The translations under genes and the position numbers were made by a program. From Linnemannia hyalina (taxonomy: Eukaryota; Mortierellomycota; Mortierellomycetes; Mortierellales; Mortierellaceae), in NCBI GenBank assembly GCA_019671135.1, contig JAHRHY010000001.1, positions 1,426,001 to 1,490,000 of the forward strand: a stretch of DNA of 64,000 bases, given 5' to 3'. Numbering within the stretch: position 1 is the stretch's first letter; each line of letters opens with the position of its first letter. The notes beneath the pieces are model-generated. The model was given only the letters and a program-made list of their open reading frames with translations. It was not told the DNA's origin and searched no databases. This document shows positions 6,445-41,341 of this stretch, piece by piece.

Positions 6445-7639
6445 CTGTTGTCCGATTACAGTCCAGTGACTCGTAGTCGTATCCCTTCAACCGTTTTAGA
6501 ATCGAAATCGCCACCAGAGTTTCCCGCCAACCCCAGTACAAAATCACGCTATGCTTTGAACAATATGATTCGAAGTAACGGCTTGGAGCTGCAGGTCCTC
6601 GCCTACGACACCAAACACGAGCCACATGGAGCCCTGGATCCAGTCATGCGTATCGAAAATGTCTTGCCTGATGAGGACACTATCGCCAGGATATTCCAGG
6701 GAAAAATACCAAAGTGTCGCGGGTGGGACCCTGGGGAGTTGGTGACGGCGGCTTTATGTCTGATCGAGCACGAACGTGAGTGGAATGGAGCACCAGACCC
6801 TGGGGATCCACCTGTGACCAACCTAATGATACGTCGAGCAGCTTTATACTCTCCCACCACTGCAGCGCGATCCGAAAGAGAGAGAGTCAAAAACAGGAAG
6901 CTTCAAGTGGTGCCGGGCGAGAGTATCGATGGAGGAATTTGGGCGAGGGGTGTCGATCCAAAGGGAGCCAGGACAGACGTACAGTCCATCCAGGAGATCG
7001 AAAGTTGTTTGCCCCCAAAAGGCCAAGTAACCGTGGAGGATTTCGAGGATGCTGTTCGCGTCAGAGTGTCTACAGAGCCCTTGCTTCGGGAGTTTGAAGG
7101 CTCACTACGCATGAAAAAAGCCGCCTGGGAGGAGAAGAAAGCCGTTCGTGCCGAACTGGATATAGCTGTGGCTGCAATCCTGCGCTTTTGTGGACCGGAG
7201 CCGTGTCTTATTGCTATTGGCAACGGCAAGTTTCGAACGGGGATAAACTTGGCTTCCAAGCATGAGACATTGCAGAGTCATTTTGCCAAGAAGGTACCGT
7301 CATTATGCCGCGACAAACAATTATTTACTTGCTCAATTGTCAACGTTATGCTATGGGACCATTCAATAACCGTCAATCTTCTATCTAACGTAGGCGCGAG
7401 CACATGGCCACATTGTCGTTTTGGTTGATGAATATCTGTCCTCGACCGTTTGCCCAGCTTGCACTGCCCGAGGAGAGACCTCCAGGATGGCAAAGCCGAC
7501 TTCAAGATCTTGTGTCTGCCTCGCCTGTAGTCGATGGATCAACAGGGACTCGGTTGGAGCTCACAACATTGCACTGATCGCTGAGCAATGGCTCTTCGAT
7601 CAGTCTCGACTGATCTCTCTCCTTCGGCCCAGCGTTTAA
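6445..7639 (+). pseudogene. 5'-truncated Fanzor (TnpB-like RuvC/zinc-ribbon) copy
   Basis: Two coding segments, about 6445-7293 and 7394-7639, joined by a GT-AG intron. They read through the C-terminal half of a Fanzor nuclease: RuvC-I aspartate in GWDPGE, the GNGKFRTGINL motif, the Fanzor-type glutamate in LVDEYLSSTVC, CxxC pairs of the zinc ribbon, and the RuvC-III aspartate in NRDSVGAHN. The sequence is clearly related to the C-terminal part of the gene at 33521-38278, and the intron sits at the same codon (after AKK here, AQK there). No ATG and no N-terminal half are present; an in-frame stop at 6442-6444 precedes the homologous region. I therefore call it a truncated remnant, although the remaining frame is undamaged and might still be transcribed. 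It lies just after the SR-protein gene and may be an old insertion in its 3' flank. Confidence 0.8.
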
Positions 7640-7711
7640 CCTTCACAATTGTAAAGACCCCGAACAGGTCTTACCAAGTTATCCTTGTGACTGGCAACGG
7701 TCGAAGGGATA
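7640..7711 (+). ncRNA. Candidate Fanzor guide-RNA scaffold / element right end (copy 1)
   Basis: Directly after the stop codon there is a hairpin at 7654-7672: stem AAGACC/GGTCTT, loop CCGAACA. Then comes ACCAAGTTATC, and the segment closes with TCGAAGGGATA at 7701-7711. The larger Fanzor gene has a matching arrangement after its stop: hairpin with loop CCGAAAA at almost the same distance, ACCATTATC once the Harbinger insert is removed, and the same closing 11-mer. The two copies show no similarity beyond it. In TnpB/Fanzor systems the guide-RNA scaffold lies at the 3' end of the nuclease gene and ends at the element boundary. The RNA role is inference; no transcript data are available. Confidence 0.45.
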
Positions 7712-26924: not shown

Positions 26925-28327
26925 TTACATAGTAATGTCTGCGGCATATATTTTATCTCTTCTCGATCTATTTGTGTCCGCCGCCATCCTTAACTTAGAG
27001 AAGAAAGACGAAGTGTACTAGCAACGTTGTGTGTTTCGCTGAATAAAAATAAAATCGGGAATGGTTTCTTTCTTACCTCGCGGCGTTACCTGGATGGTAC
27101 TTTGCATGGCGTAACATTAACGAGATGCATCAAATAAAGCCATGATTGATGATCCATTTGGCGCCGACAAAGCCCCGACCCTCTGTTGCATCTTTGTTCA
27201 TTCGCATGAACAAAAATGCGATATATATCTGTCCACAGGACTTTGTTTTTCTCTTCTTTATTTCTATGTCACTGGGGCCATTTGACAAAACCTGCCCAAG
27301 TGATGTGAGTGAAGGGTGGGTGGATTGAGGCTGTCATGGTTTTTTTGCCCTGTAAAAGAAATCGGAAGTTAAAGCTGACTTCCTGTCTCCAGTACGATCG
27401 TCCTCTCACACGCCGAGAAACTATTTCTGGCGATTGTTATGTTCTATTTCTATGCTCAAATGTTTGCAGAGACGTTTCTGTGCGTGCGCCCTCGTGAAGC
27501 AGCTGGTTGGCTGACCAGGCACCCTTTGAATTTTTTTTTATTATTTTGGCTCATTTGCATCTTTTGTGCGTGTGATGCACTGGTAAAGTTCAGGGTCGCT
27601 ACCATAGCCCTTTTCTTTCCTTTTCTTTTCTTTCCCTTCTCCCTTCTCCTTTCTTTCTCCTAGCTTACATGCATTTACTTAGTTCAACAGCCATAGATCC
27701 CAATTGATCCATTGTCAACAAAAGCATAATAAATAAACATTTAAAGCAAGTTCGGCTGTCCCCTTGTTTTCAAGGAACAGGTATTTTTTTTAAAGAGGTC
27801 CAAAAACCTCACTGAGAAAGAAAACACTTCTAAAAACAATTGTACTCGCGACATGATAAAAAAGGCATGTCATCGCAAAACAAACACGCCAGCCTAGCGT
27901 TCTCTCCCTTCTTTCCCGCCCACCTCCCCCTCCTTTTTGGCGCCGAGCGTACTGCTCTGATGAACGCATTTAAAAGCTAGCCCCTCCCCACACCACATCC
28001 ACCATGTTCCGGGCCGTAAAAAAGTTAATAACAACAGTTGGGTTATTTTTGTCTCAAAGTGCTCTCAATACCTTTTCCCGTTCAAGCGACTCTTTTTGTC
28101 AACGAAAACACGATGATATAAAGGATAGACCTTTCAGCTTTTTTTTTTTCTACTCACTAGTCCAACTCTCCTTCTTTTCTTACACAAAACCCACTCCTCG
28201 CCGCCCCTCTGTGCAACGCTTGTTTTTGTTCTGTTACCTGGCATTTGTCGCTTGTCATCCTTTCTCTACATTACCAGGGCAACCCTCCAAAAAAAGCACT
28301 CTTTTCTCTCTTCTACATACCTCAAAA
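26925..28327. other. Intergenic region upstream of the BBE-type oxidase
   Basis: About 1.4 kb. It contains the 3' flank of the arrestin gene, a CT-rich tract near 27610-27660 and AT-rich sequence toward 28000. An in-frame extension of the next gene exists upstream of 28328, but it contains low-complexity Phe-rich sequence and no signal peptide, so it is treated as leader. Confidence 0.5.
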
Positions 28328-29869
28328 ATGCACATCCCTTCCACAAGCAGCGTACTACTGCTCCTGGTCTCCTTGACCCTCAGTTCCATCGCCCCCGCCA
28401 CTGAAGCCGCCGCTGCCCCCGGCCCCTCAGCAGATTTCCTCAAATGCCTTAAACCCCTCGGCTCCTCCAAAGTCCTCACCGCAAAGGACACAGCCTACCA
28501 ACAACAGCGTTACGGCTTTGACCTTCGGTACACCTACCAGCCCTCGGTCATCATCATGGCCAAATCTGTCGGCGATGTCCAGACAGCCGTCAAATGCGCC
28601 GCCGCCGCAAAGATCGCCGTTGCCCCTCGTTCGGGAGGTCACTCCTTTGAGGGTTACTCGCTCGGTGGTCAGGATGGATCTATGGTCCTTGACCTCACTG
28701 CCTTGAACTCTGTCAAGGTCAAGGGTAACAAGGCCACCGTCGGGTCCGGCATCCGTCTCGGAAAGCTCTACCTCGACCTCTTCAACCAAGGAGGATGGAC
28801 CATCAACGCCGGTACCTGCCCCAGTGTCGGTATTGGCGGCCACGCCCTCGGTGGTGGATTCGGTCTCCTCTCGCGCAAGTACGGTCTTCTTGCCGACCGT
28901 ATTGTCGAGATCGAGATGGTTGATGCCAAGGGCAAGGTCGTCAAGGCTTCTGCCTCCTCCAACCCCGACCTCTTCTACTCCCTCCGTGGCGCTGGCGGCG
29001 GCTCCTTCGGCGTCGTCACATCCTTCACCATCCTCCCCTTCAAGGCCGCCACCAAGGCCACCTCCTTCTCTTACGAATGGAAGATCAAGGACTACGCCGC
29101 CGTCCTCAAGGCCTACACCAACTACCAATCCAAGGCCACCCGCGATATCGGTGTCGAGATGAACGTCGGCCCCTCCGGTCTTGAGCTCTACGGAATCTTC
29201 CAGGGCTCCAAGGCCGATCAAGCCAAGGCCCTCGCCCCTTTCCTCAGCGCTGTCCCCAAACCCACCTCCAACGATGTCCGTCAAGGCCGCCAGATCGACG
29301 CTCAGCTCCGCTTCGCCTTTGTCGAGGGCGGCAAGGAGGGCGACATCAACGGCCTCTCACTCAAGAGCCCCTTCCGCACCGGTGACTCCCATTACACAAA
29401 GGGCAAGTCCATCGTTTACCCCTCGGCCCTGAAGGACTCGACCATTGCCCTCCTGGGCAAGTGGGGCGCAAAGAAGCCCTCTGGTGCGACCTCAAACTAC
29501 ATCATTGTCGATCTCTGGGGCGGCGCCGTCCAGGACACCGCCGTCGACGCCACATCCTTCATCCACCGCAACGCCCACACCGTCTTTGAGTTTGTCGTCG
29601 AATGGGACCAGAGCGCAAAGCCCAAGCCCGGAAAGGCTGACTGCAAGGATTGTCTCAAGTGGATGAACGACATGTACGCCGAATTCTTGGCCGACTTCAA
29701 GTCTGCTGGTTATGCTGGCCCCCTCCGCGGTTACCAGAACTACATCGATGCAGAGATCCCCAACTGGCAGGACGCCTACTACGGCTCTGCCATGACCCGT
29801 CTCAAGAAGACCAAGGCTGCTATCGACCCCACCAACATCTTCCGTTTCCCTCAGAGCATTCCTCTGTAA
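28328..29869 (+). CDS. Secreted FAD-dependent oxidoreductase, berberine-bridge-enzyme type
   Basis: Single exon, 513 aa. The start at 28328 gives a clear secretion signal (MHIPSTSSVLLLLVSLTLSS, cleavage probably near ATEAAAA). The FAD-binding type 4 domain follows, with the two flavin-linking residues of BBE enzymes in place: His105 in RSGGHSFEGYS and Cys164 in GTCPSVGIGGHALGGGFG, indicating bicovalent FAD. The C-terminal BBE motif (RGYQNYIDAEIPNWQDAYYG...AIDPTNIFRFPQSI) is complete. Family members oxidise sugars, alcohols or alkaloid-like substrates with O2; the substrate here cannot be told. The gene is intronless and unusually rich in C at third codon positions compared with its neighbours, which suggests strong expression or a different history. 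A degenerate transposon lies about 270 bp downstream. Confidence 0.92.
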   Translation: MHIPSTSSVLLLLVSLTLSSIAPATEAAAAPGPSADFLKCLKPLGSSKVLTAKDTAYQQQRYGFDLRYTYQPSVIIMAKSVGDVQTAVKCAAAAKIAVAPRSGGHSFEGYSLGGQDGSMVLDLTALNSVKVKGNKATVGSGIRLGKLYLDLFNQGGWTINAGTCPSVGIGGHALGGGFGLLSRKYGLLADRIVEIEMVDAKGKVVKASASSNPDLFYSLRGAGGGSFGVVTSFTILPFKAATKATSFSYEWKIKDYAAVLKAYTNYQSKATRDIGVEMNVGPSGLELYGIFQGSKADQAKALAPFLSAVPKPTSNDVRQGRQIDAQLRFAFVEGGKEGDINGLSLKSPFRTGDSHYTKGKSIVYPSALKDSTIALLGKWGAKKPSGATSNYIIVDLWGGAVQDTAVDATSFIHRNAHTVFEFVVEWDQSAKPKPGKADCKDCLKWMNDMYAEFLADFKSAGYAGPLRGYQNYIDAEIPNWQDAYYGSAMTRLKKTKAAIDPTNIFRFPQSIPL

Positions 29870-30143
29870 ATATCCTTAGCATGCAAACTAGACAACAATA
29901 ATATACCTTCAACCGTGTAGAATCGAAATCGATTCCAATTTTTTTTTTTCAATTTATCAGGGTTTCCGATAAAACGGGTTGGGAAGGGTCCCGTGTCGTC
30001 TAATGAAAACAACGAGAGTTGTCGTTTCCCAGCTTGCCTCATTACCACCTTCGCTGTCAAATTCAACCTTTTTTTTCTCTCTCATTATCTCCAAAGCCTC
30101 CGTTACTGTCTCCCTCACAAAGAAAACTTCGCCCAACCTATCC

Positions 30144-31190
30144 ATGGACCCAAGCTTCGAGTTCCTACGTTCCTTTGACGTTTCTAACGGTCAAGGTACT
30201 AGCACACTCACTTCCGAGGAGACAGAGGAGCTGTCGTTTTCGGTCATTTGCCGAACTCGAGAGATTCCCAATGAGGATGATTCCGATGATGAAGAGCGAC
30301 CACCAGAAATAGAGCAACCGGGCGGAAGAGGAGGTGTCCCCTGCATCCTTAGCTCTCGCGAAAGCGAAGAGGGCTAGCAAGAAAGTCGCCCGCGAACCCA
30401 CAGAAATCCCAGCCGTCCCTGACTTCAAGGACGTCTTCAAACACCAAAAAAACAGTATGGTCAGCACAAACCAACCTTCCCCTTGCACTTCAACTCGACA
30501 GCGAACTATCCCCATTGACAATTTTCACTCTCTTCTTCTCCGACCCGGTATTGACGGATTTGGCAGACAACACTAACGCATATGCAGCATCAAAAGGAGC
30601 CGACACAGGAGAGGGATCGCGCCAATGGGTAAAGACCACACCTGACAAACTGCGCATATTTCTCGGCATCATTGTCTACATGGGCTTGTTCAGGCAGAAC
30701 TCTGTCTCTGAGTATTGGTCAACCTTCCCTGAATGTCCTCAACACAACATCACTGACTTCATGTCCCTCGTCCGCTTCAAACAACTGAAGCGTTTTTTTC
30801 ATGTCTCCAACCCCAACGAGCCTGAGCAACATTGGTTCTCAAAAGTAGAGCCTCCTTCGACCAAACTCGCTACCGACTTCGTTCGTTACTACGTTGCCTC
30901 CACCAATGTGTCCATCGACGAGATGATTGTTCGTTTTTCAGGAAGGAGTGGCTATACCATACGCATGAAGAACAAACCTATCCCAGAGGGCTACAAGATT
31001 CTCGCACTTTGTCAAGCTGGATACACCCACCCCTTCCTTTACACCTCACGCGTCCAATCCATCATCGGCATAGAAAAGATAGCATGATTGACAATGACCT
31101 CTTCAGCTGTTGTTCACCTTGCCCAAAGATGCCCGTCCGTGACGACAAATCAATTTTATTCAGGCTGTCTTAGTCCTCGTACGAGCACAC
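30144..31190 (+). pseudogene. Degenerate piggyBac-type transposase
   Basis: Pieces of one transposase are spread over three frames. From 30144 an acidic N-terminus (EDDSDDEERPPE), then a shift near 30330 to a frame with AKRASKKVAREPTEIPAVPDFKDVF. From about 30510 comes the DDE_Tnp_1_7 region: FFSDPVLTDLADNTNAYA, KLRIFLGIIVYMGLFRQNSVSEYWS, RFKQLKRFFHVSNP and DEMIVRFSGRSGYTIRMKNKPIPEGYKI. An in-frame TGA stands at 31085-31087, after which TSSAVVHLAQRCP continues the family pattern until about 31190. The C-terminal half, with the rest of the catalytic core, is missing, and a LINE remnant on the other strand starts shortly after. The element is dead. Confidence 0.85.
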
Positions 31191-31240
31191 TGTCTACCTC
31201 ACTCAGTAAGTATCCTAAACCGTACAAACGTTCAAGAGAT

Positions 31241-32712
31241 CTAGGTGCGCTCTTCCTCCAACTCCTTGATGACCATGCTGCCTCTCCTTTCCATAATATC
31301 CATGCGCCTCAGGCCCAGCAGGGTGTCGATAACTGCTTGGTCAGCCACTCGAGTATCGCTCTGCTCGCCTGGGCACCGCTGTTCCTTGTGCTCTGCTACG
31401 GCTCGTCCGCAAAGGTACTCGTCCTCTCGGAGTTTCCGCCCATAGATCTGTTGCCACCTGTGGGTCTGTGTCCACCGTGCCCTCTGGTCCTTGGTGGTGT
31501 GTGTGTGCTTCATGCTGCTGGTGATGCTGTTCTCCTCCTCCTACTTGATAGTTCTCTCGCTGCGTGTCTTCCATAACTGCTCCCTGGCCTCCTTCTCGTC
31601 ACATCGGCAAAAGAGACGGCTCACATGCTGGGTGATGCTCTCTGCTACGTCCTTGAACACCTTGCTCCATTGCGTAGCTAGAGCCTTCGTCACTAGGCCT
31701 CGGTAGATGTGGTTGACCGTCTACGCGCTCGGGATATGTTGTTCCGGTTCCTCCACCTCTTCCTCGCCTGACCGCTTGATCGCCTACCACAGCGCCTTGC
31801 GGAGCTTGCTGGTTCTTGGTATCCTCCATACGGTCTCGGGAGGGGACTGTTTTCCTGGCTTGAGCTGCTTCTGTCGCTGTTTGTTGAACTGTCGTGTGGC
31901 GATCTCTCCCCATCCGTCGACTCGGTCAAGGGCATCCTCCCACAACTCCTCTTGCGTCTCCCTGCTCTTGGAGCACGCCCAAATGTGCTCATTATCCTCC
32001 GTCTCTAGACCACAAAGTCGGCATAAGTCGTCCTTGTACAGATCTGGACGCCTGGCGCGTAAGACGTCCATGGTGGGCAACATTTCGTGGACCTTCTTTA
32101 TCCCACGGCTGCGTAGGCGTGTATCCTGCTGTGAACTGAAAAGGGTGTTGACTGGTTTGTTGATGTGTGTATGTTTGAAAGGGTACCAAGTCAGTCTGCG
32201 CCCTTGTAGTCTTGAATCGATCTTTTGGTCCTCCTCAGTGCACTCCACTCCTGGTGCCAGCATCTGGTGGTCTGCATCTTGAACACGTGTCTCGTGCCCT
32301 GATCGAGGATCACGCCAGCCATCGTCGCAGAGCATTTGATGTCGTCCTATCCATCTCCCATGCCGTACTGCCGTCTCCTTTGCTGCCATATCCGCCTTTT
32401 CGTTCCATTCGTCTCCATTGTGACCCTTGACCCACTCGACTGTTGTTGACCCCGTGCGCTCGCCGCATATTCGTGCGATCGCCGTCCACTCTGCCGCGTA
32501 ACCGCACCTCAGTTTTTCTCTCACCGACGCTGTTTCACCATTGATTGGTTGTCGAGTCGGATGCAGAGGTCCTGTGCCACGTTTAGCCCCAGGTTGCCAG
32601 GTTTAGGCAAGAGTCGGCTCTGTCCTTGTTCCATTGAACGCGTCCTGCATTTTGATCCGTCACGTGACCTCCGCCACCAACTTGATTCTTGCCACCAGTC
32701 CGGCATGAGCAC
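31241..32712 (-). pseudogene. Degenerate LINE (non-LTR) remnant: RNase H and zinc-knuckle C-terminus
   Basis: On the minus strand a series of frames reads as the 3' end of a LINE ORF2. The RNase H end is VEWVKGHNGDEWNEKADMAA, preceded by RLDNQSMVK in a different frame, so at least one frameshift lies near 32520. Then comes the cysteine/histidine motif CRLCGLETEDNEHIWAC typical of such C-termini. The tail in further frames ends at a TAG at 31241-31243. There is no reverse transcriptase or endonuclease region, so the copy is 5' truncated, as usual for LINE insertions. It borders the piggyBac remnant directly, which suggests it inserted into or next to it. Confidence 0.8.
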
Positions 32713-33253
32713 GACTGAGTTCCTTGGTTATATCCTTCTGTCCCCTTGGTCTAGGCCGGTACCTGTAAAGAGCTACTTGCCTAGAAACATTCCGTTAACC
32801 ATCTTTGCCTTTTTGCCTCATCGCCCATTTGTGTCTGTCATTCGTTTTGCCATTTGTCATTCTGTCTTTCCCAATTCCGGTTCCGTTCCAGGCCCTGTCT
32901 TGACCCCTTTCTGTTTAACCGGTTCCTAGCATAAATAGACCACCTGTTCCCCTGTCTTGTCCTTCAGCCTGCAACAACTCACTTCCATCTGTCCTTTGCC
33001 TTACTCTTTCCTTTCTCTTCATAATAAAACATAACAAAAACAATACCCATTCTTCCGAGTCCTGTCTGATCATTGCATCCTGGTCCTGTGGTGTTGCGAT
33101 GATTCCTGCGATCAATCCCATCAGTTCCGGTTTCGCCGATGATGCGAATCCCCCGGTGGTTCCCTTCACCACCGTACGATACCATCACACTGATGAGTGA
33201 GGCTCTTATGATTGCCATATGACGCTACATGTGACCATCACGCCAAAAAAAAA
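32713..33253. other. Repeat-like noncoding segment upstream of the XPG-Fanzor gene
   Basis: No gene was recognised. A TATA-like CATAAATAG (around 32930) and an AATAAAA (around 33022) are spaced as in a solo LTR, but I found no TG...CA ends or target duplication. The segment may be the edge of another old element. Confidence 0.3.
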
Positions 33254-33290
33254 TGTAGTGCAAGTTTGCACTACAGGGGGATATAAAAAG
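33254..33290 (+). promoter_or_regulatory. Perfect palindrome plus TATA box before the XPG-Fanzor gene
   Basis: A perfect inverted repeat with 10-bp arms, TGTAGTGCAA-GT-TTGCACTACA, lies at 33254-33275. Six bases later TATAAAAAG occupies 33282-33290, about 230 bp before the ATG. The arrangement fits a core promoter with a binding site for a dimeric protein, possibly the encoded nuclease or a host repressor. It might also be a structural end of the element. The function is inferred. Confidence 0.5.
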
Positions 33291-33520
33291 AGCAGGCGAG
33301 GGCGCATCTGAATAACCTCTTCCTTCTTTCCCGTCACTCACCCAATACGCCACCATCCACTCACACACACACAAAGCCTGCCTGACGATTCGAAGGTACA
33401 AAGAACAAGAGATCAGTGCATAAATTCAATGAGCAACAGCCACGTCAGCCTTGGCTCCAGAAGAGAAGGAAATGCTTATGCTAGTTGTTTTTCCAATTTT
33501 TTATGCGTCGATTTTTAGCC

Positions 33521-36500
33521 ATGGGTGTCACTAATCTCCCAAAAACACTGAAGGAATGCGGTGGTCAGGTCGAGACTCGCTTCAAGAACCCCGGCGCGAT
33601 GACACATGTTGACTTCATGTCTCGTTTCTTTCGGCTTGTGCAAGTCCGAGTATTCAACATCGTTCAAACCCGCATCAAGAACGACATCCCCTACCAGCCT
33701 GACAGCCAAAAGCCCAATCAACCCCATGACACGTACAACTTTAATGCTACCAACAAGAGACGGATCCTCGACGAACACCAGCCTCCGACAGCCGTCCCCA
33801 ACCACCACACCCATGTTCCCTATGACCCAACCCTCACCCTAGACCAGCTTATTGAATTGTCCATCCAGGAACTGGATCCGACGGCATTGTACGCACACTC
33901 TGATGGACTCTCGACATCTCCAAAGGAGGAGAACAAGTTGGTAAGATATTTTCGTTGTTTACTCTTGCCAGTGATTAACGTCATATTCTGTAATATCAGC
34001 TGCTAAGATTTTGGCTTTCTTGATATTTTCACTACAATAGGAATACCGAGCGGTTGCGTTCGTTCTGGATTCGGTACTCTCCAAGATTCTGGTGAAGGAC
34101 CAAACGGTTATTCACATTGACGGGCTGCCCTCAGAAGAGAAGCGGGAGGAGCATCGGAGAAGAAACGCAGCTCTAGGAAGGACGTTGACAAAGCTGGAAC
34201 AGGATGTGAGCAAGACAAACTGCAAGCCGGGCCGCTCACTATTGAAACGGTGCAGGAACGCATATCGAACACCGAGATCAACCATGGAGAGCGAGATCTT
34301 CCTAGGGCTCACAAGACTCGGCTGGAATCTTCACCAGTGTCTTCATCAAGCAGACACTTGCCTGGCTCGAGTGTGTCAGGTCTCCCCAGACCCAAGCCTT
34401 TTGATTCTTATCACACGAGACAGCGACATCATTGTCTACGAGGGGGTCCAGTCCATCACCTTACCGGTTGGCAAGTCCCACGAGCTCATGACCGTTACCA
34501 AGGATTCCGTCCTACGCTGCTTGGACCTACCCTCGGAACAGCACCTCCTCCTCGCGTGTATGGTGACGAGCAACGATTACGTTCGCAACATTCCATATTT
34601 TGGTTTGATGCTGAATTGTGAGATCGTTCGCAGCATGGATCTGTCAGGACTTTCTCCTCTCGGGGAGGTTTACAACAACAAGAAACGAGCCAAGGAGATT
34701 CAACACTATATCCAGCAGTACATCGAACTTGTCAACAAGCATCTATCACAACAAACACGATGGAAATCCGGGAAGGGCAGAAAAAGGCAAACGACAGTCA
34801 ACACTGGTGTCGACCACTATCGCCACGCCATCACCGCATTCGTTGAGCGAACAGAGTCGGATGTACTAAATCCTATCGAGCCCATTGACAACACCCCTCC
34901 GGCTCACGAAATTGTCGTTGCTATACTGGAAAAACTTCACCAGGCAGGCAAGCAGCAGAAACAGCATGAAGCCGACATTGCCGACACCACCACGTTCGAC
35001 AGCGTCTCATCAACGTCGGAGCGACAATATCGAGTATCGATCAAAACGGAGCCAGAGCCGACCTCTGGGACTGATCGCGAGACCTCAAAGTCCTCCACCT
35101 CATCCAGCATACCATCAGCGCTTTCGGCAGCCAATCGGCCACCAGGCAAAGCAAAAAGGAAGAGATCGTTGAGGCAGCAGGAACGACAAATGGAACGAAG
35201 GCGTCAGCACAGGAAGAAGACATCAAAGTACAGAACATGGAAAAGTTCGAAGTAAGTTTAACGAGGATTTTGTTTTCAGCTATTGCATGTAATAATATTT
35301 CTGGCTTACTAACATAGTGATACTATTTTGAACAACAATTCAGGTTCAAGTCAAGAACCGACCTGGACCAGCGGTACTCGGTGCGCAGGATTACGATTGC
35401 GGATGCCACTATGGTCGACCCTGCAGAGTTGGCCAAAATGACGCCAGCTGTACCGAAGCTCAAGAACACACCAAACAAACCCCCGTCGAATACCGGTCCA
35501 CAATCATCTTCAAGCTCGTCATCGTGCACCCCACCCTCTCACAGCACTGAGAGTGTCGCCGTCACACCTTCCACAGCCACCCCCAAGGCCACCTCCAAGA
35601 AGTCCAGAAAGAAACCTAGGAAGCCCCGCAAGCTCAAGGCACCTGCGCCCGCTCAGAAGGCCGCATTTGGTGCTGCCTTTGCAGTGTCGACGCAGAGACT
35701 CGGAAGTCTTCGAGGCTGTTTACGCCGCGCATTATTGCCAATGTCCGAGGGAGCTCAGCTACCTCTATACGCGACGGGTGATCGCAAGACTCTCGAGGAC
35801 GCAGATTTCACTGCTTTGGCCATGAGGTTGACTGATGCTGTGGACGTCATGAACCAGGCTTCAGCTGTCGTCTATCGCATGCTGGAGATCACTATCTGGG
35901 ATGAGCTTTTACGCGGTTCGAACGGCATCGCAGGTGATGGACAACCGGAGCCGGACTGTGTGATCGGGGAGGTGACGCTCTCTGGTGGGAAGGCTACCGT
36001 CGTCTCAGGAAGTTCGGAGGCAGGGAGCGAGGAGTTTGATATTCTGGATCTTCTATTGCAGAATTCAGCGGGAATGGCTCTTATCAAACACCTATACGCT
36101 CTAGCATTAAACGGCAAGATGGACAACAGAGGACCCAAGACCAAGAAATCCGCCAGCAAGGCCGTTAAGGCGATCGCTCAACGCACCTACGCTCGCCTGT
36201 TGCGGATTGTTCCCGGGTACAAGCCGACCAACACCAATCACATACAAATGGGGCGACCGATAGTTGCAGCCGCCAAACAAGTGATAGTGTGCCTCAGGAC
36301 TCACGTTCGACAAATGCCTTTCACCATTGGATCAAGGGTATGTATTTTTTACGCATCTGTACGTTCATGCATGTATGCCTATTTTTTAGAGACTGACTAT
36401 CTTTAGCTTCTTAATTTTACACAATAGATGCTAAAATGTGGATGGGTTAAGGAGACCTTGCCTGAAGGCTCCTTCAAGGATGATGAAGCGTCGGACGAGA

Positions 36501-38278
36501 TGGTGGATCCAGGAGCAGATCAGGGCGACAGTGACGTGATGGACGATGCGGACAATGATAACGATGATGACGCGGAAGTTGGGGTAGTGGACGAGGATCC
36601 CTCAACAAGTTTTTCAACAGGATACATCTATCACTGGTGGCGACAAGCAACTCACCTCCCTTCTTCGGCGCGCCCGGTCTTCTGTCTTCGGCGCCCTTTC
36701 AAGAGCTGCTTCGTCATGTTGGAGGAACGAGCCTTGCCACAGATCCTTTGGGGAACAAGCCAAAAGTTTCCGAATCCCGCTAGGGCGTCAGCCGACAAGA
36801 TCATGACCACAAAGATGGCGCACACGCTAGTGGATCAGGAGTATGGACATTTGATCAAGATACTGTTTTACGGAGACCGGCAAAGGATTCGGGATTCAAC
36901 ATCCGTGTGGCAAACCAGCTATGGAAAACGAACGTCTACAATGGACGACCTCTCCAACGCCAACAGTGGCGTCTATGGAACTGTGGCTCTTCAATCGTAT
37001 CTGTCAGCCAAGTTTGACTACATCAGCTACGCCAGCGTATGCCGCGACCAAGACCGGGCATGCGACAGGACCCCGCCGCCTCTTCCTACCGACACCAGCA
37101 CGGACCGATACGCCCTCTCGAATGTTATATTGACCAATGGGCTGCAGCTACATACACTTTGCTTCGATACATCAAAACCTTTCCGATCTCGAACGTCTTT
37201 CGCTCCTATCTACCGCATCGAGCGACAATTTCCTACGCTACAATCAATTCTGGACGCCTTTGGAGTAGATTCAGTGGAAGAACTTGACGTATGGGGGGTC
37301 GACCCGGGTGAAGTCAACTCTGCCACATTTTGTTGTCTTGAGCGTCAGATCCAGAAATCAAGCGGTGCTACGACCAACTCAAGCAAGGATACTGTGGATC
37401 GACCCGAGGACGAAGTCGACAGCCTCATCCTACCTCCCTCAGTCGTCGCGAACAATCTGGTCGTTAGCCGACTTGCGCTATACAGTCCAATAATCGCACA
37501 TCGCAACCAACTGAACAACATCAAGCAGCATCGACCGGTTCTCCTTCCAGGACAGGAGACGACTCCAGATCTTTGGGCCAAAGCAGACCTTGACCGCGAC
37601 AAGACTGGCATATCCATCCCGTCTATCAAGGATGTCGAGAACCTGGTTCTTCCCTACCAGTATGATTCCAAAGAAGACCACGAGAAGGCACTCCAACGGG
37701 CCTTTCTTGTTCGTTCCGTCTTGCAGGGCTTCTACGCCTCCGACCGGATTCGCAAGTTGAACTGGGAACTTACCAAGTGGAAGGATGCCGAGATAGATTG
37801 GGCGGTTGATGGTGTGCTGAGGAGCTGTACAAGGAAAACGCTATTCTGTTACGGCAATGGCAAGTTCAGAACGGGTCTCAACTTGGCGTCCATGCACGAG
37901 TCATTCAAGGGCCGATTTGCGCAAAAGGTGAGTGTTTTTTTATATTGTCCCCTTTCAACTTCTACTTTCGCGATTCAACAAGACTGACTTTTGTTCATTT
38001 GTATTTTTTTTATATCATAGGCAGTGGCTGCAGGGCACATTGTTGTACTGGTCGATGAAATGTTAACATCGACCATGTGCCCAACATGCGTGGAGCTCGG
38101 GGTAACCTCGCGTCTAGCCAAGCCAACCATGCGGTCATGCGCATGTTTGAGCTGCGGTCGGTGGCTGCACCGAGACATTGTCGGTGCACACAACCTGGCT
38201 ATCGTAGGGGAGACCTGGATTCGGAGCCTTACCCGCCCAGGTCCTCTTTGTCGGATGAGTCCACCTTCCATAATTTGA
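33521..38278 (+). CDS. XPG/FEN1-like 5' nuclease fused to a Fanzor (TnpB-like) RuvC nuclease
   Basis: Five exons (33521-33940, 34041-35251, 35344-36337, 36428-37927, 38021-38278) with GT-AG introns and matching phases give an uninterrupted 1460-aa protein. Residues 1-50 and 141-340 read as the XPG/FEN1 N and I regions: start MGVTNLPKTLKECGG, Asp31 (HVDFMSRF), Asp167 (VIHIDGLPSEEKREEHRRR), Asp267/Asp269 (LITRDSDIIVY) and Asp319 (TSNDYVRNI) fall on catalytic acids of FEN1. The EAEA helix reads QAD (Gln243, Asp245), so one glutamate is replaced. Lys/Arg-rich linkers follow (PGKAKRKR, SKKSRKKPRKPRK), resembling nuclear localisation signals. Residues from about 1090 onward are Fanzor: RuvC-I Asp1167 (WGVDPGE), GNGKFRTGLNL, Glu1388 (LVDEML), zinc cysteines 1395, 1398, 1417, 1420, and RuvC-III Asp1427 (HRDIVGAHN). 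Fanzors are RNA-guided DNA nucleases of eukaryotic mobile elements. The XPG fusion is not one I know. Two adjacent genes remain possible if the 36338-36427 intron is not real. Confidence 0.78.
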
Positions 38279-38318
38279 ATTAGACTAGCTTACCTGCGCC
38301 GAAAACGCAGTCACCATT
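38279..38318 (+). ncRNA. Candidate Fanzor guide-RNA scaffold (copy 2), first part, interrupted by Harbinger
   Basis: Fifteen bases after the stop codon a hairpin occupies 38294-38310: stem CTGCG/CGCAG, loop CCGAAAA. It is followed by CACCATT, where the Harbinger-like element begins. The second part lies beyond the element at 41093-41127 and ends in TCGAAGGGATA. Joined, the two parts parallel the segment after the truncated Fanzor at 7640-7711. The stem sequence differs while pairing is kept, which argues for selection on structure, although the stem is short. Confidence 0.42.
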
Positions 38319-38352
38319 AGAAAGTTTTCGCAGACCTCATATTTCCTTCGTT
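38319..38352 (+). repeat. Left terminal inverted repeat of the Harbinger-like element
   Basis: It begins AGAAAGTTTTCGCAGACC and ends TTTCCTTCGTT. It matches the reverse complement of the right end with a few substitutions and a 1-bp gap. Confidence 0.75.
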
Positions 38353-38394
38353 TCGTAGTCACAGTGGCTCATATTCAATTTATGTTGGTTGAAA

Positions 38395-38453
38395 CGAAAG
38401 AAATCCTTCCCGTTTATCCTTCGCGGAAGGAAATTTGGGAAGGATTTCTTTCG
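38395..38453. repeat. Left subterminal inverted repeat (hairpin)
   Basis: A perfect 16-bp inverted repeat, CGAAAGAAATCCTTCC at 38395-38410 and its reverse complement at 38438-38453, encloses a further CCTTCG/CGGAAGG palindrome. The AAGGAAA/TTTCCTT core is also present in the TIR and in the right subterminal hairpin, so these are plausible binding sites for the element's Myb-like protein or transposase. Confidence 0.7.
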
Positions 38454-38507
38454 TCCCAAAAAGGCCATAAGACCACTGTCTTCACTGCATCTTCAACTTC
38501 CACAGCC

Positions 38508-39482
38508 ATGGACAACATCAGTCCTCCACAGGATCTTCAACATCTACCCACACCGACAACATCAGCCAACCAGCCATCTCGGAAAAGTCCATTTCTCGGA
38601 TTCACTGACAACTCCAAACAAGACGAGTTCTTGGTCCAAGCGTTGGCGCATCACAATCCCTTCAAGGCGGATCATGGGGAGAAAGGAGCAACATGGGACC
38701 GGGTGCTTGGGTATTTGATGACTATCGACGAAGTAAGAGCTAGGCATGGTCAAGCTTCGATGTTTGCAGGTGTTACAACCAAGACCTGTCGGAGTCGTTG
38801 GGAGGCTATTTTCGCCAGGCACCAGAAGCGCATCGAGACCGTTCTCGAAAAAGCAGGAAGTGTTCCCATTGAGACTGATCATGATCGACGCGTCGACAAC
38901 CTTTATAACGACCAAGTGGAGAACGACAAAGCAAAGTCGGCATCCAAGGAGATGAATGAAAAGAAGCGGAAACGGCAGCAACAAAATAGAGCCTTAGGCG
39001 CCGCGCTACGCCGTGCCTCTCTTGATAAGGCCTGCTACCGATTCAGCCCCTCCTCAGTTGATGATGGCGGCTTCACCTCTAGCGCATCTTCACCAGCTCA
39101 GGTTGAGGGTCCTTCTACTTTTCAGCCAACTGAATCGTCTTCATCTCGATCTTCCGACCCACAGTCGTCTCACTCAGCCGGGTTTTCACAGACTGCTCGA
39201 TCGAGAACGGTGGCGACAGGCAAGGTCAGGATTGAATCCGATTACAAGAGAAGGAAACGTATTACCGAAGACGTTAAAAAAATGAGGAGCAACATCATCA
39301 AGGACGACATCAAGAGGCACGAGGATACGGAGACCAAGCGTCAGCAACAAACAGACGACATTGTCCGCACCATACAGGAAGGCAATCGAGGCTTGATCAT
39401 GGCTATGGAGGAGAATAGTGCTAAACAAAACAAAGTGCTCGACACTATGGCCATCCTCCTTCAAAAGCTGGTTGAGAAGTGA
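38508..39482 (+). CDS. Myb/SANT-like DNA-binding protein of the Harbinger-like element
   Basis: Single exon, 324 aa. The start at 38508 is the first ATG after a non-ATG extension and gives MDNISPPQDLQ. Residues about 30-120 form a trihelix/Myb-SANT-like domain: DEFLVQALAHHNPFKADHGEKG, TWDRVLGYL, TTKTCRSRWEAIFARHQKR. The middle is Ser-rich, and the C-terminus is a basic then charged helix (YKRRKRITEDVKKMRSNI, later MEENSAKQNKVLDTMAILLQKL), probably a coiled coil. In PIF/Harbinger elements a Myb-like partner binds the subterminal DNA and imports the transposase into the nucleus; that role is inferred from the pairing. The stop lies 8 bp from the transposase stop on the other strand. Confidence 0.82.
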   Translation: MDNISPPQDLQHLPTPTTSANQPSRKSPFLGFTDNSKQDEFLVQALAHHNPFKADHGEKGATWDRVLGYLMTIDEVRARHGQASMFAGVTTKTCRSRWEAIFARHQKRIETVLEKAGSVPIETDHDRRVDNLYNDQVENDKAKSASKEMNEKKRKRQQQNRALGAALRRASLDKACYRFSPSSVDDGGFTSSASSPAQVEGPSTFQPTESSSSRSSDPQSSHSAGFSQTARSRTVATGKVRIESDYKRRKRITEDVKKMRSNIIKDDIKRHEDTETKRQQQTDDIVRTIQEGNRGLIMAMEENSAKQNKVLDTMAILLQKLVEK

Positions 39483-39490
39483 GGAGACTT

Positions 39491-40879
39491 TTATTGCTCA
39501 ATAAAGCGAATAACACCTGCATTTGGCGTGAACACCTCATCGTTCAGATACTCGTCCAGAGTAGGCGGGTTAGAGCGAAAATGTGAGCTGATTTGGTTAC
39601 CATAGATGCAGGTTCGAATGTTGGTCATGAGTGCCATTACTCTGTAGTGATATTCGACGGGACTTTTGAGAAGCTGATGTTGACGCCGATAGTTAAGAGC
39701 GCTGAAATAACGAGTGATCTCGCCGAACGCCCATTCTATTGAACAACGCTGTTCACACATGACTCTATTGTATCGAGCCTCGTCATCAGACATACCCGGA
39801 TACTCGTCGTACTGGACAAGAACATGAGCCCCGAGCTGGTACGCACCGTCGCCAAAGATCGCCAATGGCCGCCCTTGAGTGTCGTATGCGTGCTCCTCCA
39901 GTATGCGATCCATTCCTGTCAGAGCAAACATCTCGATGTCGTTGTGGGTGCCGTCAAATGCCTCGCTCAAATGGATCATGATTCCGTCCGTCGCAACCAC
40001 GCTTTGATAGTTCAAGGTGTGCTGCTTCTTACGGCCATTGTATTGTCCTTCCTGTCCAACACATGGCCTGCAAATAGGACGGCAAGTTCCATCAATGAAG
40101 CCGAAAACATTGCCACATAAGCCGCGAGTCTTTAGGCTGCACCAAAGAGCGTATTCTTCCAGTTTTTCCGGAGTGAGGCGGAGCGTGTCCCAGTCAAGAA
40201 CCTTGTGCCAATGTTCCATGATCCAGAAGAGTGTGCAGTTGATAACCCTTGAGATCGTCGCGCTACTGCGATGAAAGACTGACGACATTCGACTGAGCTT
40301 GGATGGAGATGCGAATCGATAGAGCACAAGGCAAAGTGCCTCAACTGACCAAACCTTGTCTCTGGATCGAGTGACAATCAGATCTGGTAGTCGGAGGGCG
40401 ATGACGATGTCAATAATGTTGTTCCTGTAAAAGCGTAGTTGCTCCTTGGCCTCTTCATCATCCACAAGCAGTAGATTGAATCGCTCGCCGGGTAGGAATG
40501 GCCCACGAAACAATGGTGGTCGTATATCACCGTTGTCCGCCATGTCGCCATTCTCCACGTCGTCGTCTTCCACCTCTATCTCCTGCTCCTCCTCTGGTCC
40601 TGGTTCATGGCAAACCTCAAAAGCATCGTCCTCGTCCTCGTCCTCATCCTCATCCTCATCCTCGTCCTCGTCCTCATCCTCATCCTCGTCCTCGTCCTCA
40701 TCCTCATCCTCGTCCTCGTCCTCGTCCTCATCCTCATCCTCATCCTCGTCCTCATTCTCGTCTTCACCCACATCCTCATCCTCGGCCTGGCTGACATCGT
40801 CGAACAATACGTCCACATCCAGCTCTCCATTGAGAACAAGCTCCTCCAGGTATAGGTGGAATCTGAGTGCGGCCGACAT
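39491..40879 (-). CDS. PIF/Harbinger-type transposase (DDE_4 / HARBI1-like nuclease)
   Basis: Single exon on the minus strand, 462 aa from the ATG at 40879. An N-terminal acidic Asp-Glu repeat of about 45 residues precedes an HTH-like region (WSVEALCLVLYRFASPSKLSRMSSVFHRSSATISRVI). The catalytic triad of the family is intact: Asp263 in GFIDGTCRPI, Asp314 in FDGTHNDIEMF and Glu382 in CSIEWAFGEI. Other family marks are GRKKQHTLNYQSV and FGDGAYQLG. The enzyme cuts and pastes the element at 3-bp targets. The long Asp-Glu tract is unusual and comes from a GAN-GAR microsatellite. A longer start at 40915 exists but adds an unrelated peptide. Confidence 0.9.
   Translation of the reverse strand: MSAALRFHLYLEELVLNGELDVDVLFDDVSQAEDEDVGEDENEDEDEDEDEDEDEDEDEDEDEDEDEDEDEDEDEDEDEDEDEDDAFEVCHEPGPEEEQEIEVEDDDVENGDMADNGDIRPPLFRGPFLPGERFNLLLVDDEEAKEQLRFYRNNIIDIVIALRLPDLIVTRSRDKVWSVEALCLVLYRFASPSKLSRMSSVFHRSSATISRVINCTLFWIMEHWHKVLDWDTLRLTPEKLEEYALWCSLKTRGLCGNVFGFIDGTCRPICRPCVGQEGQYNGRKKQHTLNYQSVVATDGIMIHLSEAFDGTHNDIEMFALTGMDRILEEHAYDTQGRPLAIFGDGAYQLGAHVLVQYDEYPGMSDDEARYNRVMCEQRCSIEWAFGEITRYFSALNYRRQHQLLKSPVEYHYRVMALMTNIRTCIYGNQISSHFRSNPPTLDEYLNDEVFTPNAGVIRFIEQ
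40627..40758. repeat. Asp-Glu-encoding hexanucleotide microsatellite
   Basis: On the plus strand the tract alternates CTCGTC and CTCATC units for about 130 bp. On the minus strand it encodes the (ED)n run of the Harbinger transposase. Antisense frames across it (poly-Ser, poly-His-Pro) are shadows. Confidence 0.85.
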
Positions 40880-41030
40880 TTGGAGATATTGATGGGTGTT
40901 TTCAGTTATACACAAAGATTACTGACCAATGCCGCTGGCCATTTATATGCTGGGGTCAGAAGCCTATTGTCTTCTGACCGCAGCATGTACGACTGAAAAA
41001 TTCCTGCGAAACAACTCATTTTTCCTTCAA

Positions 41031-41072
41031 TCAATTTTCCTTCGTGGAGGTTATTCAACGAAGGAAAATTGA
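41031..41072. repeat. Right subterminal inverted repeat (hairpin)
   Basis: A perfect 15-bp inverted repeat: TCAATTTTCCTTCGT at 41031-41045 and ACGAAGGAAAATTGA at 41058-41072, with a 12-bp spacer. It overlaps the inner part of the right TIR and shares the TTCCTTCG core with the left end. Confidence 0.72.
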
Positions 41073-41089
41073 ATCTGCGAAAATTTTCT
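41057..41089 (-). repeat. Right terminal inverted repeat of the Harbinger-like element
   Basis: Read on the minus strand from 41089 it begins AGAAAATTTTCGCAGATTCA and continues to TTTTCCTTCGTT, pairing with the left end. Confidence 0.75.
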
Positions 41090-41092
41090 ATT

Positions 41093-41127
41093 ATCTCAGT
41101 ATTGTCTTCTTGACAATCGAAGGGATA
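41093..41127 (+). ncRNA. Candidate Fanzor scaffold (copy 2), second part
   Basis: This 35-bp piece continues the 3' flank of the XPG-Fanzor gene after the Harbinger insertion and ends in TCGAAGGGATA, identical to 7701-7711. After it the two Fanzor copies have no visible similarity. Confidence 0.42.
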
Positions 41128-41341
41128 CCTGTATATATAAAAAGTCTGAAAAAAGAAAAATAATGTTTTCTTGACAGTTTTAATGTACATGGTGAAATGT
41201 GGTGGGGGCGATAGTTGTGTGCGCGTGTGTTTTTTTTACGTGTTTTGGTAAACTTCCTGAGAAGGAATCAGTGCGCCACTGGATTTAAAAAGTAATAGAG
41301 TTCTTGAGCTTGTAGAGTGATCCAGGGAAGGAAGCCTGCCG
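41128..41341. other. Gap between transposon island and SMEK gene
   Basis: AT-rich sequence with TATATATAAAA at about 41131 and GTGTGTG runs. No coding potential was seen. It contains the 3' flank of SMEK. Confidence 0.4.

Follow-up and report, generated by a model that had tools for sequence, protein, structure and literature searches.

An XPG–Fanzor fusion gene predicted on a piggyBac-like transposon of Linnemannia hyalina

The closest described relatives of the gene reported here are the Fanzor1 proteins. The biological roles of Fanzors in eukaryotes are given as unknown in PMC10432273. The same work describes the guide RNA (omegaRNA) of SpuFz1 as a 75-nucleotide (nt) scaffold followed by a 14–15-nt guide lying past the element end. 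In the work of Bao and Jurka (PMC3627910), the host elements of Fanzor belong to the Mariner, Sola, IS4, Helitron and MuDr superfamilies, and Fanzor1/TnpB-like proteins share the motif D-X(125,275)-[TS][TS]XX-C4-X(5,50)-RD. Here we describe a Fanzor variant that contains a new, additional domain and is encoded in a 64,000-nt stretch of the genome of Linnemannia hyalina (contig JAHRHY010000001.1, 1,426,001 to 1,490,000, hereafter the window, whose own numbering is used throughout), where a piggyBac-like transposon carries a gene predicted to join an XPG-type nuclease domain to a Fanzor in one chain.

A search of mostly open literature found no paper in which an XPG domain is paired with a Fanzor or TnpB, in line with the preliminary description of this locus, which knew of none; a mention in the survey of Jiang et al. 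2023 is possible. The literature match for TnpB with XPG concerned Cas12a, no title among the matches listed named a piggyBac element carrying a Fanzor, and the search for Fanzor in Mortierella gave no literature match.

The predicted fusion gene and its two halves

Once spliced, the five exons of the gene (Table 1) form an open reading frame (ORF) of 4,383 nt, corresponding to 1,460 codons and a final stop. No other stop interrupts the frame, and 4/4 introns have GT...AG boundaries. The introns near residues 544 and 876 were also found in the element families FAM0, FAM1, FAM2 and FAMC, whose products share ~25–50% identity with the window protein, and these include the counterpart of 36338-36427, an intron about which the preliminary description had been doubtful. 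The intron at 1375/1376 is present in FAM2 and FAMC as well (this comparison used tblastn pieces, with splice models for FAM0, FAM1 and FAMC). A Dissophora ornata protein, P0001, is 86% identical across the aligned part, and gene models covering both halves exist in L. gamsii, E. parvispora, L. hyalina and M. alpina. The five in-phase exons thus stand as first described, and the frame, the conserved introns and the pairing of the two domains along the genome (see below) agree with the proposal of a single fused gene. We conclude that the window gene is a predicted XPG–Fanzor fusion whose domain order is shown at the sequence level.

The Fanzor half, described earlier as complete, was confirmed as such by three lines of evidence. 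The Pfam family Cas12f1-like_TNB (TNB below) matches the window protein with a score above its cut-off (E-value in Table 1, exon 5), Fanzor1 is the first match of the structure model of the relative P0003 (residues 337-1085 on SpuFz1 18-633), and the motif of Bao and Jurka is present as D1167-X223-[TS][TS]xx-C4-RD1427, with the TS at 1391. The RuvC aspartate D1167 is conserved in 31/31 covered copies, and 29 of 38 genomic sequences have kept the DE-[TS]S-C4-RD block (E1388-C4-D1427) intact, the other nine being six that were fetched around the XPG exon only and three in which the block is changed (C18, C48 and the fragment C2). This half is therefore complete and has a Fanzor1 fold as modelled, and it is predicted to cut.

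The XPG half was less easily placed. Up to an E-value of 1, no Pfam XPG model matched the window protein, and at the same limit XPG_I matched 8 of the 11 members of our alignment A6 (best 3.3e-5); the XPG_I score of the distant locus L097 was 19 bits, below the cut-off of 24.9, and neither XPG_N nor XPG_I reached its gathering score in the window protein. A search of the PDB with the single window protein returned one weak, irrelevant match. Because Pfam and NCBIfam alone miss this half, profiles were compared with the PDB, and folds were used as well. A 9-protein profile then found Exo1 (E 1.6e-4), an 11-member profile including seven distant genomic relatives found RAD2 (E 1.7e-14), and the AlphaFold2 model of P0001 matched Exo1, with a fold spanning residues 2-418. 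Both structure models are those of the relatives P0001 and P0003, not of the spliced window protein. By modelled fold and sequence profile, this half belongs to the Rad2/XPG superfamily, and by fold it is nearest to Exo1/Rad2. The earlier label of XPG/FEN1 type thus holds for the superfamily and gives way to Exo1/Rad2 for the nearest relative, and the profile search proposed at that stage (XPG_N, XPG_I and zinc-ribbon/Fanzor) found TNB in the window protein and no XPG model.

At the predicted active site, D31, D167, K174, R181, D245, D267, D269 and D319 are present, while Q243 aligns at the Exo1 Glu position, which we take to be Exo1 E150 and FEN1 E158, so that six of the seven metal-site acids are kept. 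D31 was found in 19/19 covered copies, D167 in 29/30 (one Leu), and D245, D267, D269 and D319 in 30/30 each; K174 and R181 are aligned with the basic pair of the superfamily, a near-invariant K and an invariant R. Among ten distant loci, nine have Glu at the place of Q243 (two of these nine lack another acid) and one has Val. As Glu occurs in 9/10 distant loci, the ancestral residue was probably Glu. The change from Glu to Gln at the active site runs through the whole clade, which makes XPG cleavage uncertain there, and the structure-nuclease activity with which the gene was first credited cannot be assumed. The distant locus at C1:605k has an EAD site in its XPG part, followed by a Fanzor RuvC exon (E 4.9e-23) and then a TNB exon. 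L103 together with L097 (C1:605200-609330) represents this distant XPG–Fanzor lineage with a canonical EAD site.

Spread, selection and the carrier transposon

In the genome of L. hyalina itself, we found at least 91 matches to the Fanzor exon, at least 70 to the XPG exon and at least 91 to the TNB family (90 over the cut-off). A TNB match lies 1.5–6 kb downstream on the same strand at 62/80 XPG-like loci, against 2 and 2 in the controls. The first XPG query alone gave 59 paired loci out of 67, with an observed spacing of 2.0–4.5 kb (controls for this set, 1 opposite-strand and 1 upstream), and 19 of the 26 most distant XPG-like loci were paired. The count took all 91 TNB matches and 67 of the 70 first-query XPG matches, three second pieces being left out; from the second XPG query 43 of 83 matches were taken, the other 40 being loci in the first list already, and 41 of 67 piggyBac matches were used, again without second pieces. 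Chance adjacency of XPG and TNB was considered and is ruled out by the 62/80 count against its controls.

The same domain order was also found in other Mortierellaceae; the preliminary description had suggested looking for it in other Mucoromycota. The XPG and Fanzor identities correlate (r 0.87 over 28 non-independent protein pairs). A homologue search with distant XPG pieces returned five proteins, all named as Mortierella or Linnemannia, with other taxa possible, as this search needs shared words. A piece of the protein P0007, searched with one wrong letter at its first position, gave two weak matches (E 0.23 and 0.38), both well away from that letter. In public records these proteins are called hypothetical or 'PIN domain-like', and two E. 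parvispora proteins are named after the TNB domain. The 62/80 pairing gives a likely identity for dozens of such genes, some of them now listed as 'hypothetical' or 'PIN domain-like protein'.

Selection was followed through the ratio of non-synonymous to synonymous substitution rates (dN/dS) within families. In FAM2 (28 pairs), the mean ratio is 0.32 for the XPG exon, one copy of which has a stop, and 0.20 for the Fanzor exon. In FAM1, it is 0.29 for the XPG exon (15 pairs), and, across 15 pairs that are not independent of one another, exon 4 shows 38 synonymous and 14 non-synonymous codon differences. These codon comparisons indicate purifying selection on the XPG exon in FAM1 and FAM2.

The gene lies in a transposon with later insertions inside it (Table 1); most of this transposon and of the Harbinger-type element within it falls beyond the coordinates of the preliminary description. 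Several multi-copy families bear out the link to mobile elements made in the preliminary description. These families have sharp 3' ends in ...GGGATA. The 5' end of the window copy is 91–94% identical to two FAM2 copies and was also matched at C1:1455902, and its 3' end is common to other families. FAM2 elements measure 7.4–8.5 kb and start with TATCCCTTCAACCG; their copy L067 on C22 encodes a piggyBac-like transposase (PF13843, DDE_Tnp_1_7, E 1.7e-40), and a related 5' end is common to FAMC and FAM0. The window transposase matches PF13843 at 30353-31084 (E 3.2e-34) over model positions 1-169 of 349 only, and the region to 31126 is 91% identical in DNA to a FAM2 element. At 28/39 piggyBac-domain loci, an XPG-like locus lies 0.8–8 kb downstream.

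The last ~75 nt of the elements fold into a first hairpin and a terminal hairpin that ends exactly at the element end in 6/7 end groups folded (window/FAM0, C48, FAM1, FAM2, FAMC and C12). The terminal hairpin is closed by UAUCC...GGAUA, with UAUCU in the window. The stem of hairpin 1 varies and still pairs: CTGCG/CGCAG in window/FAM0, CTCCG/CGGAG in C48, CTATAG/CTATAG in FAM1 and FAMC, AAGACC/GGTCTT in FAM2 and CGTTC/GAACG in C12. Each loop can be read as 7 nt with GAA, and the folding program gives C12 a 5-nt loop. Of the upstream pieces, 6/6 contain a 5-bp stem that closes a 7-nt loop, compared to 22–109 of 2,000 shuffles each, for pieces picked after the hairpins had been seen. Rfam at gathering scores gave no match within the window. 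The candidate agrees in size and position with the SpuFz1 omegaRNA.

In the window copy, an element that presumably belongs to PIF/Harbinger, as judged from its DDE_Tnp_4 match (E 1.3e-17, 39491-40918, minus strand) and its TTA target, lies between the two hairpins, at a site that is uninterrupted in FAM0 copies. It probably breaks the copy's own candidate omegaRNA, and with this RNA split the window copy would probably depend on another copy for its RNA. The gene was first called intact, which holds for the protein ORF and not for the element around it, whose transposase is limited to a 5' part and whose candidate omegaRNA is split.

Table 1 Features of the transposon copy and of the fusion gene in the window.
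Feature	Position	Strand	Remarks
Whole transposon copy	29902..41127	+	5' end TATACCTTCAACCG, 3' end CGAAGGGATA; later insertions inside
piggyBac-like transposase, 5' part	29973..31126	+	PF13843; truncated, frame in two pieces
Exon 1	33521..33940	+	Start of XPG-type domain, with D31 (HVDF motif in protein alignment)
Exon 2	34041..35251	+	Remaining XPG-type domain (D167, K174, R181, Q243, D245, D267, D269, D319), linker
Exon 3	35344..36337	+	Linker, then Fanzor start; fold onset ~residue 655
Exon 4	36428..37927	+	Middle part of Fanzor, with the aspartate D1167 of RuvC (codon at 37301)
Exon 5	38021..38278	+	E1388, C4 zinc ribbon, D1427, stop; PF07282 E 9.2e-10
Hairpin 1, candidate omegaRNA	38294..38310	+	CTGCG-CCGAAAA-CGCAG; stem varies yet pairs in other families
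PIF/Harbinger-type element (presumed)	38320..41090	.	Between the two omegaRNA hairpins; TTA at 38317-38319 and 41091-41093
Terminal hairpin, candidate omegaRNA	41092..41127	+	Flush with element end; guide would begin at 41128

Several further observations were made on these elements. The Harbinger-type element has a second ORF (38508-39482) with no Pfam match. Between the transposase and the fusion gene, 31784-33077 is likely a retroelement remnant by its sequence; 31784-32602 (minus strand) has weak RNase H and zf-RVT Pfam matches under their cut-offs, and the segment 32586-33077 is found again in two FAM1 copies. An internally deleted FAM2 element lies at 6480-7711 (+), with both ends kept and a Fanzor C-terminal fragment at 6502-7293; its two-hairpin 3' end is intact, giving it the look of a ghost-like copy. 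FAM0 elements (L066/L065, C1:298.8k, C5:1599k) are chimeric: a FAMC-like 5' part, which includes a piece of a Fanzor exon from FAMC, precedes the XPG exon that is their own. The listed FAMC copies (for instance C6:25364-26131) have positions 8-117 and 294-349 of the piggyBac domain only, yet there are many near-identical copies. Outside the transposon, a long ORF at 27974-29869 (+), FAD-linked-oxidase-like by eye only, stops just before the element 5' end.

A possible role in copy-back, and its rivals

We propose that the piggyBac-borne XPG–Fanzor performs RNA-guided cutting at the site addressed by its element's own 3'-end RNA, likely with end trimming, and thereby promotes homologous copy-back, a reading to which we give a probability of roughly 0.45. 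Transcription of the element 3' end would yield an omegaRNA whose guide is the flanking host sequence, and this RNA would match the empty site left once the transposase moves the element. The Fanzor would cut that empty site, after which the XPG/Exo1-like domain would bind the nicked or broken junction and remove 5' ends or displaced strands. Removal of the 5' ends would favour strand invasion into the sister chromatid still holding the element, and homologous repair would restore the element from the sister copy, so that it is kept or gained. The likeness to Exo1 makes 5' resection the natural guess, and TnpB is thought to act via such a break, according to PMC10432273. Since Q243 replaces the catalytic Glu in this clade, the XPG step may be slow, metal-altered or one of binding only. 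The preliminary description had the fusion process both the R-loop and the ends, which we narrow to the processing of ends for repair-driven copy-back.

Several results weigh against this proposal. Q243 stands in place of the catalytic Glu in 30/30 covered genomic copies. The window copy is damaged outside its protein gene, no PF13843 match lies near any FAM1 copy, the transposases of FAMC are missing the central part of this domain, and 29/91 TNB matches have no XPG-like locus found upstream. Selection appears weaker in FAM0, with a dN/dS of ~0.56 for the XPG exon (C1 vs C48) and 0.6 for the Fanzor exon (one pair, few differences), and the FAM1 and FAM2 values come from non-independent pairs and include the FAM2 XPG copy with a stop. 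As for the RNA, the seventh sequence with the end motif, C22_6126, folds without the two hairpins, the 3' ends folded as single sequences give only modest z-scores (-1.2 to -3.7), and 15–26 of 200 shuffles fold equally well for 4/8 3'-end sequences. Of two alignments of these ends, one made with MAFFT misplaced FAM2 and C12, and the other offset the stems.

The Gln at the metal site, conserved where distant relatives mostly have Glu, would also fit an XPG half that does not cut and instead serves as a junction-binding module that places the Fanzor on DNA with nicks, flaps or branches, with RuvC alone cutting. We consider this the strongest rival, though less likely than our proposal: the other six acids are retained in nearly all covered copies, the basic pair is kept, and purifying selection acts on the XPG exon of both FAM1 and FAM2, which together argue against a pure binding module, expected to lose more. 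A different function altogether would be defence or control, exerted by the host or by one element over others, with guides from many insertion flanks directing cuts at new or rival insertions. The many distant, low-copy XPG–Fanzor loci in this one genome, most of them paired, would suit such a factor, as would the fact that only 28/80 XPG-like loci have a piggyBac match within 12 kb upstream; however, the clade studied here sits on multi-copy transposons with the RNA candidate at the transposon end, and the would-be guides are insertion flanks with no memory array, so that this explanation seems improbable to us.

Slightly more improbable still is a passenger gene that hitch-hikes on the transposon without benefit to it. 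Some families have kept the gene while their transposase is lost or damaged, as a passenger might, but the within-family dN/dS is well below 1 in FAM1 and FAM2, the active sites are conserved, and the domain order is kept across deep divergence. Finally, the models of P0003, P0004 and P0005 begin in the middle of the XPG domain or later, as they would if two adjacent genes had been united solely by the gene model. The unbroken frame, the conserved linker introns, the models covering both halves in four species and the near-constant spacing across 59 loci speak against this, and we regard such a two-gene artefact as ruled out for practical purposes, its probability being very small.

The joining of an Exo1/XPG-type domain to a Fanzor suggests that the protein takes part in repair once the cut is made, and with both halves in a single chain, point mutants could test this role. 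Beyond this locus, we tentatively see in these proteins a natural 'cut-and-resect' system, in which a Rad2-family 5' nuclease and a Fanzor in one protein would break DNA at an RNA address and ready the ends for homologous copy-in, and, jointly with it, an ancient eukaryotic lineage of XPG–Fanzor fusions with dozens of loci in one genome rather than a one-off; we hold this wider picture to be somewhat less probable than the proposal itself. As a candidate programmable nuclease that carries its own end-processing domain, the fusion would also have practical interest where editing relies on homology-directed repair.

Comparison with known systems

Academ transposons encode an XPG-type nuclease, although no title among the literature matches listed dealt with Academ elements; we know of no Fanzor in them, and to our knowledge their transposase is unrelated to that of piggyBac. 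With piggyBac, the present elements share the PF13843 transposase. Transposons of the piggyBac type duplicate a TTAA target, whereas the ends here read TA-TCCC...GGGA-TA, and in 22 copies with both ends TA flanks both sides, with no longer duplication, TTAA included, seen by eye.

The window protein resembles members of the Rad2/XPG superfamily (Exo1, FEN1, RAD2/XPG and GEN1) in its fold, in six of the seven metal-site acids and in the basic pair, and differs from them by Q243 in place of Glu, by the lack of a Pfam XPG match and by the covalently attached Fanzor. Likewise, it has in common with Fanzor1 (SpuFz1, GtFz1 and PpFz1) the whole fold, the D...[TS][TS]xx-C4...RD motif and a right-end hairpin RNA candidate, but has ~650 extra N-terminal residues with the XPG-type domain and is carried by piggyBac-like elements, outside the five host superfamilies of Bao and Jurka. 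The TnpB systems of IS200-IS605 and IS607, with their cut-and-copy habit, are alike in combining a nuclease, a guide RNA encoded at the element end (here a candidate) and a separate transposase, as in FAM2; here, in contrast, the transposase is a eukaryotic DDE enzyme, and the chain of the RNA-guided enzyme includes a second, additional nuclease domain.

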